64,000 nucleotides of DNA. It comes from an uncultured cyanobacterium. Its GTDB lineage: Bacteria > Cyanobacteriota > Cyanobacteriia > Thermostichales > Thermostichaceae. The notes below the pieces were generated by a model that had not been told where the DNA came from, ran no database searches, and saw nothing but the letters and a program-made list of their open reading frames with translations. Each line of letters begins with the position of its first letter. Within the stretch, counting starts at the first letter, position 1. This document shows, in pieces, positions 50,772-54,750 of the stretch. Location: positions 1 to 64,000 of the forward strand of contig CALFBB010000017.1 in assembly GCA_937944885.1 (NCBI GenBank). The letters run 5' to 3'. The position numbers and the translations under genes were made by a program.

Positions 50772-51986
50772 CTAACGATCGGTCAGAGCCGATAGAGAAG
50801 GTAGGATATCCTCCCGAAAGGGAACCTCATTTTGATTCACGTTCTCTAACTCGGCCAACATGAGAGGATTGACGCGATTTAGGTAAGGTACTAGCACCTG
50901 CCGTAGTCGTGGGCGGTAGAAACGGTGATAGCTGTAAACAGGAGTAGCTGGGAAGCCACGGCGAATTTTATGGGATCCCCCGGCACCAGGGTCAAAATTG
51001 CGGATCCCTTCTTGAATGGCCAGTGCAATTGGTTCGTAGTAGCAGACATTAAAGTGTAGAAACTTGACTTCCTCCCGGCAACCCCAGTAGCGGCCAAATA
51101 GGCGATCCCCCTTGCGGATACAGAAGGACATTCCCACTATATCCTCTCCCCGTTCCCCAGCCACCAGCACCACCCGCTCCCGATAGTGGGGGTGTAAGGA
51201 TTCAAAAAAACGCCGATTCAGATATTTGCTCCAGTTCCAGAATTGGGCACAAGTATTGCTGTAAAAGTCGTACATCAAGGAGAAGAGTCGTGGTGAGATG
51301 CGCTCCCCGGTGTAAATGTTCAGTTGCAGGCCGCTCTTTTCCATAGCAGCCCGTTCTCGTTTGATGTTGCGCCGCTGATTGGCATTAAATTGGCTTAGGA
51401 ACTCTTCATAGGATCGATAGCCTGGGTTGTGCCACTGGTAGTTGTGGGTAATGCGAGGAACAAATCCATCGGCTTCTAGTTGGGCGCGCCAGTCTAGATC
51501 CACATAAAGTAAGCTGAAGACAGAAATATCATTCTCCTGACAAAAGCGATCAATGGCCATCAGCATGAGCGGCCACAGTTCTGCCTCCGAACTTTGGGGA
51601 TGGGTGAGAATGCGGTAGCCTGTGGCTGGGGTGAAGGGGGCCATACCGATTAGTTTTGGGTAGTAACGTTCCCCCAACTGGCCAGCAACAGCAGCCCATT
51701 CTTGGTCAAAAACAAATTCCCCCTGGCTGTGACTTTTTAAGTACAGCGGTGCAGCTGCGATCAACTGACCTTCGGATTCCACCAAGAGATGACAGGGCAT
51801 CCAGCCGGTTTTGCGACTGGCGCATCCAGAGCTTTCTAGGCTGTGCAACCATTCGTATTCCAAGAAAGGAGAAGTGCGCTCCGTTTCCAGCGCTTTCCAA
51901 GCAGCTGCCGGGATCTCACGGATATCGTGGCACCAACGTAGCTTCAAACGGGTTGACATTGGCCTGCTCAGATCAAGCCGACTCAT
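50772..51986 (-). CDS. FemAB-like GNAT acyltransferase (DUF482 / peptidoglycan-type)
   Basis: A protein of 404 residues (395 if the second Met at 51959 is the start) with the tandem-GNAT FemAB-like fold. The features seen are SPFLEYEWLHSLESSG near the N-terminus, LVESEGQLIAAAPLYLKSHSQGEFVFDQEWA, LSQFNANQRRNIKRER and the C-terminal FDPGAGGSHKIRRGFPATPVYSYHRF. Proteins of this family are predicted to make amide bonds with amino acids carried by tRNA or CoA; the acceptor is not known. First downstream gene of a minus-strand group that includes an ATP-grasp ligase and an esterase; spacing to the ATP-grasp gene is about 180 bases. Confidence 0.85.
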   Translation of the reverse strand: MSRLDLSRPMSTRLKLRWCHDIREIPAAAWKALETERTSPFLEYEWLHSLESSGCASRKTGWMPCHLLVESEGQLIAAAPLYLKSHSQGEFVFDQEWAAVAGQLGERYYPKLIGMAPFTPATGYRILTHPQSSEAELWPLMLMAIDRFCQENDISVFSLLYVDLDWRAQLEADGFVPRITHNYQWHNPGYRSYEEFLSQFNANQRRNIKRERAAMEKSGLQLNIYTGERISPRLFSLMYDFYSNTCAQFWNWSKYLNRRFFESLHPHYRERVVLVAGERGEDIVGMSFCIRKGDRLFGRYWGCREEVKFLHFNVCYYEPIALAIQEGIRNFDPGAGGSHKIRRGFPATPVYSYHRFYRPRLRQVLVPYLNRVNPLMLAELENVNQNEVPFREDILPSLSALTDR

Positions 51987-52169
51987 CGTGCCAGCCTTGG
52001 CTGCAGAAGGATCCCCCCTGCTCCTGTTGCCCTAACAGGGGATCCTCAGCGCTGAGGGACAGTACCTGGTAGGATCCCTGGGGCTGCTTGAGCACGTACC
52101 GATGGACAGCAGAAACCCTCCTTTTGTCCAACTCACCTACTCCCAGTCGATCCTTGAGCTACTTTAATT

Positions 52170-53228
52170 TTAGTCGGGATCCCGCGGCTCATAGTAGCGG
52201 TTGGCCAGTTCTAGAGCTGCCTGAAACTTTTGCTCACGGCTGAGATCAGAACGACGGGCAATGCAAGCGAAGGTATTGATATCTGGGGGGAGAAAGTCAA
52301 AAGAGCGTTGTTCCTGAACAATTTCCACCACCAAATCACAAAGGGCCTGTTGGTAGTCATTGTAAAAGATTTCTCCCAAGGCTTTGAGGCGACCATCAGG
52401 CACAGGGTTATTAAAATCAATCGCTTGCAACTCCCCCTGCTCATCGATAAACAGTTCTACCGAGTTCATCTCATAGCCCAAAACGCGGTTAATCACTCGA
52501 CAGGTGTCGATAACCTTACGACCTAGCTCTGGAGTGAGAAACTCAGGATCAAAAATATATTCACTAGCATCAAACTTACGAAAGATATATTTAATTGGGA
52601 TGATTTTACGACCAATACATAAGGCCCGGATTTGCCAGGGATAAGGACTTTTCACCTTTTCTTGCAGCATCATCACCTGGGAGCCGGAGTGGTCGTAAAG
52701 ATACAGCAGCTGTTCAAAGTTGTAGGCCAGCTCTACCCCGATTGCCTCTCGTCCCTCAGCAGGCTTAACCACAATCGGCCAGCCCAGTTCATTGATCATG
52801 CCTTGCCAATCAAAGAATTTGTGGTACTTAAAATCATCTCCTCGCAGAGCTGGGGCTTCCTTAGGAGGTAGGATATAGGTTTTCGGGATGGAAATCCCCA
52901 GCTCCTTAACGACCATGTAGGCAGCATCTTTATTGCGCAGATAGTAGTAGAAGCTGAAGGGATTGTTAATAATATAAACCCCTTGGAAGGCAAAGCCCAT
53001 AAATAGGCCAATCGCCTGTGGATACAGATAACTAAATCGATCCAGGATGAGGCGATATTTGGTACGGTAATCGAGATTCACCTCGTGAACGGTGACATGT
53101 TCGGCTCGGATTTTATAGGTTTGACCATTCTTGGCCAAGATGGGGGGGAGAGCATTGAGCCGCGCCAAGGTATCATCCCCAAAGGGCTCACTAAAGTGTA
53201 GACTGCCAATCCAGTAGTCTTCCGTCAT
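52170..53228 (-). CDS. ATP-grasp ligase (RimK-like)
   Basis: A 352-residue protein. A pre-ATP-grasp region (about 1-110) is followed by the ATP-grasp core: Lys-containing strand WPIVVKPAEGREAIGVEL, glycine-poor loop and nucleotide strand MMLQEKVKSPYPWQIRALCIG, and metal-binding end NSVELFIDEQGELQAIDFNNPVP. Such enzymes ligate a carboxylate to an amine or thiol through an acyl phosphate. The track start is five codons upstream; MTEDYWIGSLHFSE was preferred. The esterase gene is 30 bases upstream on the same strand, so the two are surely cotranscribed. Substrate unknown. Confidence 0.85.
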   Translation of the reverse strand: MTEDYWIGSLHFSEPFGDDTLARLNALPPILAKNGQTYKIRAEHVTVHEVNLDYRTKYRLILDRFSYLYPQAIGLFMGFAFQGVYIINNPFSFYYYLRNKDAAYMVVKELGISIPKTYILPPKEAPALRGDDFKYHKFFDWQGMINELGWPIVVKPAEGREAIGVELAYNFEQLLYLYDHSGSQVMMLQEKVKSPYPWQIRALCIGRKIIPIKYIFRKFDASEYIFDPEFLTPELGRKVIDTCRVINRVLGYEMNSVELFIDEQGELQAIDFNNPVPDGRLKALGEIFYNDYQQALCDLVVEIVQEQRSFDFLPPDINTFACIARRSDLSREQKFQAALELANRYYEPRDPD

Positions 53229-53258
53229 CGATCTTCCCCTCACTCCTCAGATGGGATC

Positions 53259-53990
53259 CTACGCAAAAGCACGGATTTGCGCTTGCCAAGTAGGCCAGTC
53301 GTGATTCCCTTCCCAGACTTCCAGTTGATGGGGAATGCCGTTGCGGTTGAGAACTTCCGACAGACGCAGATTATCGCTGAGGCAGTGGTCATGGTGGGCG
53401 GTCAGCAATTTGAGGTCAGTATTGCGCCCTCCCAGTTGATCCCACAGTTGCCGGCTCATGTTGGACATGTAGGCGAGTGGATTGATGAAATACAGCTCTT
53501 GCTCCGCCTGTTGGGGATCCCAGCCGGTGATTGACCCAAGGGCTGCCACGTCATAGGGTCCACCTAAGGCCAAACAACGGCGCACCAAGCCCGGATGGCG
53601 ACAGGTGAGATTCACCGCATGGGTTGCACCCAAGGAAAAGCCTGCCACAACCAGAAAATCATTGTGGGCTTTCTCCTTGACGTAGGGAATCAGCTCCTCC
53701 ACCCAGTGTTGCTCAAGCAAAAGCCATCGATCCCGCCGTTGGGGCAGTTCCAGTGCCTGGTTGAAAAAGGTTTCCCAGTCGAGGGTTTCTACACAAAAAG
53801 CTTGGAGGTAACCCTGCTCCAGATGGTGGCTAAGGCTGGCGATAATCCCCCGATCTTCGATATCGAAGAAGCGGCCATTGCTGGTGGGCAGGCAGATCAA
53901 TGGGTAACCCTGCTGCCCAAAGTGAAGCATTTCCATATCCCGGTCCAAAATCCGAGAAGGGAAGCGAAGATACTGACGGGAGTAGGACAT
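53259..53990 (-). CDS. alpha/beta-hydrolase esterase
   Basis: A 243-residue esterase-D-like hydrolase. The nucleophile elbow is VAGFSLGATHAVNL (GxSxG), a candidate acid lies in LLTAHHDHCLSDN, and the catalytic His is in WEGNHDWPTW. The active fold spans nearly the whole protein; no signal peptide. It immediately precedes the ATP-grasp gene, a pairing that suggests hydrolysis or transfer of the ligase product or its ester precursor. Confidence 0.85.
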   Translation of the reverse strand: MSYSRQYLRFPSRILDRDMEMLHFGQQGYPLICLPTSNGRFFDIEDRGIIASLSHHLEQGYLQAFCVETLDWETFFNQALELPQRRDRWLLLEQHWVEELIPYVKEKAHNDFLVVAGFSLGATHAVNLTCRHPGLVRRCLALGGPYDVAALGSITGWDPQQAEQELYFINPLAYMSNMSRQLWDQLGGRNTDLKLLTAHHDHCLSDNLRLSEVLNRNGIPHQLEVWEGNHDWPTWQAQIRAFA

Positions 53991-54102: not shown

Positions 54103-54750
54103 TCAGGAAATTTCTGTAAACAGGTCTTTGAGGGCGGTGCGAGCCGCCAAGTGCTTACGGGTGGATTCGAGAATTTCTGCTTCCCGTTTTAGCCGGTTTT
54201 CCGTGCTCAGCATTTCCAGCAGAGCCTGTTGCTCCTGAGGAGCCCCATGAAAGTGACCGGCAATCCAGTAGGACAACTCCGTCGGAGTAGTGGGCAGTTG
54301 CTCTGGCAGCTCGGTATCCCGCTCCATCAGTTTGCCGGAGAGGCGTACCACATCTTCCAGTAGGGTAGAGACTTGCCGCACTAGGCCTTGCAGATCGGCA
54401 CCGGTTGGCTCATCTTCGATCCATTGAACCAATCCTACCCGGAAGGGCTTTTCGCGTACATAGTCCAGAAGGCGAAAGCGCTGCTGTCCAAGGGTCAAAA
54501 TATCCATGCGATCATCCGGTAAGCGCTGTACCTGCAACACTTCGGCACAACAGCCCACCCGCACCGGGGATCCCTTTTGAGGATCAAACATCAGCACCCC
54601 GAAGCGCCGATCCGTCTCCAAGACGGTGTTGATCATCATGCGGTAGCGGGGCTCGAAAATGTGCAGCGGTAGAGGGCGGCCCGGAAACAGCACCACCTCT
54701 GGTAGAGGAAACAAAGGTAGCTCACGAACATCCAGTGAAGAGGAAGGCAT
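54103..54750 (-). CDS. LON substrate-binding domain protein
   Basis: A 215-residue stand-alone N-terminal domain of Lon protease (LPLFPLPEVVLFPGRPLPLHIFEPRYRMM, then GVLMF and CAEVLQVQRLPDDRMDILTLGQQRFRLL) followed by a helical bundle (about 120-215). It has no ATPase or protease domain. Such proteins are common in cyanobacteria; the role is unknown, perhaps binding damaged proteins. Lies between the esterase and ruvC genes on the same strand. Confidence 0.88.
   Translation of the reverse strand: MPSSSLDVRELPLFPLPEVVLFPGRPLPLHIFEPRYRMMINTVLETDRRFGVLMFDPQKGSPVRVGCCAEVLQVQRLPDDRMDILTLGQQRFRLLDYVREKPFRVGLVQWIEDEPTGADLQGLVRQVSTLLEDVVRLSGKLMERDTELPEQLPTTPTELSYWIAGHFHGAPQEQQALLEMLSTENRLKREAEILESTRKHLAARTALKDLFTEIS

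Follow-up and report, generated by a model that had tools for sequence, protein, structure and literature searches.

The closest described counterparts of the locus analyzed here are the cyanophycin synthetase-cyanophycinase systems, the RimK, LysX and ArgX ligases, the PF00756 esterases and predicted amidoligase gene clusters. In cyanophycin systems, synthesis by an ATP-grasp enzyme that is fused to a Mur-ligase-like domain is combined with S51-type hydrolysis. The ligases of the RimK, LysX and ArgX type usually contain an E-x-N metal motif, and the PF00756 esterases include Fes, esterase D and the feruloyl and CE1 esterases. Iyer and colleagues are said to have predicted, in 2009, amidoligase networks that join ATP-grasp and GCS2 ligases, peptidases and hydrolases in conserved gene neighborhoods.

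The window, that is, the entire 64,000-nucleotide stretch of cyanobacterial DNA that was analyzed, encodes an esterase (hereafter EST) and a divergent ATP-grasp ligase in adjacent genes. Unlike cyanophycin synthetase, the ligase is a single ATP-grasp protein of 352 aa that lacks the Mur-ligase-like domain, and, unlike in the cyanophycin systems, the S51 gene of the same genome is located on another contig. The ligase resembles RimK, LysX and ArgX in its fold and sub-threshold profile matches but is only 14-17% identical to the best LysX/ArgX and RimK structures, contains a D-F-N-N metal motif where these enzymes usually have E-x-N, and is encoded in a context without a LysW-like carrier or S6. 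EST shares with the PF00756 esterases the catalytic Ser and His motifs and the overall family but represents a separate, cytoplasmic-looking family that is tied to ATP-grasp genes. As in the predicted amidoligase clusters, members of the wider family of the window's ligase adjoin GCS2, M29 and S51 genes, whereas the window contains a two-gene form only and lacks the combination of a second amide ligase and a peptidase; the full set is found in the Planctomycetota relatives.

Locus organization and selection

The following features are encoded in the relevant part of the window:

54103-54750, minus strand: LON substrate-binding-domain protein, upstream; a neighbor kept within the genus only, outside the unit
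53259-53990, minus strand: esterase (EST), 243 aa, alpha/beta hydrolase of PF00756
52170-53228, minus strand: divergent ATP-grasp ligase, 352 aa, ATG start
51947-52098, minus strand: remnant of a 62-aa gene, with a 7-base deletion and a stop
50772-51959, minus strand: FemAB-like (PF04339, DUF482) GNAT-type acyltransferase, 395 aa, judged to lie outside the esterase/ATP-grasp unit

An earlier note on this DNA placed the EST, ATP-grasp and FemAB genes consecutively on the minus strand at positions 50,772 to 53,990, with a gap of 30 bases between the first two. This arrangement was confirmed, the spacing between the EST stop and the ATP-grasp ATG being exactly 30 bases; femAB follows more than 200 bases after the ATP-grasp stop, with the remains of the small gene in between. 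The location of femAB given in that note holds as well, but translation probably starts at the ATG at 51959 and not at 51986: the ATG at 51986 is unique to the window's genome, and a start at 51959 yields a protein of 395 aa, as in the other Thermostichus genomes. Compared with the other genomes of the genus, the EST, ATP-grasp and FemAB genes show dN/dS values of about 0.02-0.06, that is, strong purifying selection, and hence are real, functional genes. Scans for promoters and terminators at the locus yielded nothing beyond chance and do not settle the operon structure, and a search for plasmids by protein produced zero matches.

The ATP-grasp ligase and the esterase

The ATP-grasp protein does not score above the cut-off of any Pfam or NCBIfam family. 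The best NCBIfam matches are TIGR00768 (rimK_fam; 36.1 bits, with a cut-off of 143.4) and LysX_arch, which is below its cut-off as well, and PF08443 yields 14 bits against a cut-off of 21. The earlier designation of this protein as RimK-like is therefore apt at the level of the fold but not at that of the family. Judged by its AlphaFold2 model (pLDDT 88, pTM 0.89), the protein has the ATP-grasp superfamily fold: in a Foldseek comparison with PDB, the model matches LysX, RimK and Ddl with E of about 1e-12 and a probability of 1.00; the best fold matches are LysX/ArgX, MdnB, RimK and Ddl (D-Ala ligases), and the graspetide ligases 7m4s and 7mgv also rank among the top ones. Residues K100, K155, R201, E258, D271 and N274 are invariant among 15 ATP-grasp relatives, and in the alignment with biotin carboxylase, E258 and D271 fall on its acidic metal-ligand positions, D271 being an Asp where the second Glu is usual. 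The two ATP-binding lysines and the acidic metal ligands characteristic of ATP-grasp enzymes are present, and the protein is predicted to be catalytically active. Many phylum-wide profile matches in Cyanobacteriota with E of about 1e-4 to 1e-7 were set aside; they cover little more than the ATP-binding region, consistent with ordinary ATP-grasp enzymes.

EST belongs to PF00756 (E 7e-11, 42.8 bits versus a cut-off of 22), and its profile is nearest to esterase D and to CE1-type carbohydrate and feruloyl esterases. The nucleophile Ser119, within the motif GFSLG, and the likely catalytic His230, within GNHDWPTW, are invariant in all 12 aligned relatives, and no obvious signal peptide was found in the sequence. 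In the phylogenetic tree of EST, the copies from photosynthetic cyanobacteria form a single clade with a long stem; outside these cyanobacteria, identity within the family across phyla is 22-36%.

Association of the two genes across genomes

Six genomes, from G000, the window's own, to G005, are denoted here as Thermostichus-type, a label for cyanobacteria of the hot-spring type; G052 is a cyanobacterium outside this genus. In all six Thermostichus-type genomes and in G052, the EST and ATP-grasp genes lie side by side in the same orientation; the G052 proteins are 71% (ATP-grasp) and 61% (EST) identical to those of the window. Among 59 related genomes, the ATP-grasp gene is present in seven, G052 being the sole carrier outside the genus in that search.

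The association extends to other phyla. In two Wallbacteria loci (L120 and L122), a relative of EST adjoins a relative of the ATP-grasp gene. Using profiles built in this work, and counting ATP-grasp matches with E up to 1e-20, we found relatives of the ATP-grasp protein in 52 and relatives of EST in 49 of 199 Planctomycetota genomes, with both present in 45; the hypergeometric p-value of 2e-32 overstates this association because the genomes are related and not independent. Of these 45 genomes, 29 have the two genes within 5 kb of each other, 28 of them within 2 kb, and the remaining 16 have them on different contigs. Either gene also occurs in other company. Many relatives of the ATP-grasp gene from the window's subfamily have no neighboring esterase (L009, L010, L011, L050, L095 and L096), and EST is present without a window-type ATP-grasp gene in two cyanobacteria of another family (L181 and L182). 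In some non-photosynthetic Cyanobacteriota (L180, L184 and L185), EST immediately follows an ATP-grasp enzyme of another type, which is COG0439-like. As a separate observation, at L181:7388-8762, in a genome without the ATP-grasp gene, the EST-family gene follows a gene for a protein of 186 aa that appears GNAT-like by eye.

FemAB and its small partner gene

The assignment of the third gene to the FemAB/DUF482 type was correct (PF04339, E 1e-142, 475.7 bits versus a cut-off of 27, residues 22-392). FemAB-like proteins are encoded in 58 of the 59 related cyanobacterial genomes, nearly always in a single copy, so that femAB is a cyanobacterial core gene; we regard it as an unrelated neighbor of the EST/ATP-grasp pair. 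None of the window's other neighbors accompanies FemAB in sister genera devoid of the pair, and wherever an EST/ATP-grasp pair was seen outside the genus, FemAB was not next to it. The earlier note had stated that its three-gene reading would be refuted if the genes were not neighbors in related genomes, and for FemAB this is what was observed: in G052, femAB and the pair are located at 2.216 Mb and 3.787 Mb of one contig, 1.57 Mb apart.

In two sister genera (G008 and G006), FemAB is directly preceded by a small gene whose product of ~50-60 aa has the pattern WY[VI]...WGPF...ARRVGLIR[AS]G.C.PV, and in the other Thermostichus genomes, this gene (~62 codons) overlaps the FemAB start with its stop, which suggests that the small gene is the ancestral partner of FemAB. 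It may be an unrecognized partner of cyanobacterial FemAB. The small gene is intact at loci L115, L116, L169, L170, L165 and L167 but broken in the window by the 7-base deletion and stop; it is absent from the EST/ATP-grasp locus of G052. Within the genus, the EST/ATP-grasp pair is located just upstream of the small gene/femAB unit. Given that femAB is a core gene, distant from the pair in G052 and positioned behind its own small gene in sister genera, the proposed triplet is a genus-level neighborhood, and FemAB was rejected as a member of the system. Thus, of the three-gene cluster initially suggested, the EST/ATP-grasp unit stands, with the two genes co-occurring and adjoining across phyla, but FemAB does not belong to it, and a peptide-tag system combining the ATP-grasp enzyme with FemAB is unsupported.

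Larger clusters in other phyla

In Planctomycetota (L103, L104, L107, L109 and others), the clusters in which the EST/ATP-grasp pair is embedded also encode a peptidase of the S51 (cyanophycinase) family, another esterase that is Fes-like, and as many as three COG0439-like ATP-grasp paralogs. The same combination of COG0439-like paralogs, S51, Fes-like esterase, window-type ATP-grasp and EST was also noticed at L111, L112, L190 and L192, and this large conserved cluster, as found at these eight loci, outweighs the window pair as a candidate pathway. In Gemmatimonadetes (L015 and L018, the same as loci L128 and L127, respectively), the gene order is ATP-grasp, S51, Fes-like esterase. Elsewhere, relatives of the ATP-grasp gene adjoin GCS2/YbdK carboxylate-amine ligases and M29 metallopeptidases (L057, L113 and L114) or an M61 peptidase (L011). 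The larger clusters show the neighborhood style of amide-bond ligases with matching hydrolases, and, as in the cyanophycin systems, those of Planctomycetota and Gemmatimonadota contain S51-family peptidases.

Two further gene families were noticed. A family of 405-416 aa proteins is encoded beside ATP-grasp relatives, M29 and GCS2 (L113:9996-11210 and L114:9798-11045); the two copies tested have no Pfam match, and the L114 copy has no NCBIfam match. In Cloacimonadota/UBP17 (L012, L013, L014 and L017), two divergently oriented ATP-grasp paralogs of this superfamily flank a conserved protein of ~318 aa for which no significant Pfam match was found.

Proposed function and alternatives

The explanation that we favor, and to which we would give an even chance of being correct, is that EST and the ATP-grasp ligase form an uncharacterized cytoplasmic module for the synthesis and hydrolysis of an amide- or ester-linked small molecule. 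Directly in hand are the gene pairing, the cross-phylum co-occurrence, the intact motifs, the fold and the purifying selection; a ligase/trimming module is favored because the pairing recurs, the motifs are intact and the larger clusters bring hydrolases and ligases together. Counting against it are the subfamily members that lack a neighboring esterase, the two cyanobacteria with EST alone and the 16 Planctomycetota genomes in which the genes are on different contigs. Under this scheme, the two proteins would work as one two-enzyme module, in which the ATP-grasp enzyme would activate a carboxylate with ATP, yielding an acyl phosphate, and join it to the amine (or hydroxyl) of a small acceptor, and EST, a putative serine esterase, would hydrolyze or trim the product or an ester-protected precursor. 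Catalysis and the direction of both reactions are predictions, and the one pointer to a cytoplasmic location is the lack of an obvious signal peptide in EST. The logic of such a synthesis/cleavage pair would be comparable to that of cyanophycin synthetase and cyanophycinase, and the window pair could be a mobile minimal version of the larger amide-ligase clusters of Planctomycetota and Gemmatimonadota.

The nearest folds, LysX/ArgX and RimK, and the sub-threshold matches to rimK_fam and LysX_arch would also fit modification of a protein or a carrier to which the ATP-grasp enzyme adds amino acids, with the esterase deconjugating them or being accessory. We regard such modification as unlikely, given that no carrier protein or obvious target gene accompanies the pair in both Thermostichus and G052, and that the Planctomycetota clusters, with several ligases, S51 and Fes-like hydrolases, resemble small-molecule metabolism more. 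Somewhat less probable still is a catabolic or salvage unit, in which the esterase would cleave a plant- or mat-derived ester and the ATP-grasp enzyme would reconjugate the carboxylic acid that is released: the EST profile does match feruloyl and CE1-type carbohydrate esterases, but the protein has no obvious signal peptide, and the recurring partners are ligases and peptidases, not genes for sugar or aromatic catabolism.

Maturation of a graspetide, a RiPP whose precursor peptide would receive lactone or lactam rings from the ATP-grasp enzyme, with the esterase opening or maturing these rings, is very improbable and close to refuted. Graspetide ligases are among the top fold matches, and alpha/beta hydrolases have been reported close to some graspetide loci (PMC8939145), but the pair is not accompanied by any conserved precursor ORF. 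The small ORF between the ATP-grasp gene and femAB was rejected as a precursor: it is kept with femAB, including in sister genera from which the pair is missing, and in the window it is disrupted while the two enzymes remain under selection. Joint action of the FemAB-type aminoacyl transferase, the ATP-grasp ligase and the esterase is hardly credible and largely refuted; the conserved gene order in all six Thermostichus-type genomes speaks for it, but nearly all cyanobacteria with FemAB lack the ATP-grasp gene, and FemAB lies far from the pair in G052, is coupled to a small gene of its own in sister genera and was not seen beside the pair outside the genus.

Returning to the synthesis/hydrolysis module, it is possible, albeit doubtful, that an undescribed cross-phylum pathway, with the window pair as its minimal form, assembles and degrades an amide- or ester-linked oligomer or cofactor; the Planctomycetota version of this pathway would include up to four ATP-grasp ligases, one S51 peptidase and two PF00756 esterases.

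Implications

In the searched literature on ATP-grasp enzymes with esterases, S51 or GCS2, we found neither a description of the pair nor experimental work on it. The enzyme classes and the cluster style are already known or predicted; what we did not find described there is a ligase of this subfamily paired with an esterase of this family. Given the tight association of EST with the ATP-grasp gene over several phyla, and with the ligase below every family cut-off, the product can be sought directly. Removal of FemAB narrows the hypothesis to two genes, a size that suits a knockout combined with metabolomics. If the pathway reading is true, the pair would be the smallest version of a cross-phylum oligomer or cofactor metabolism.
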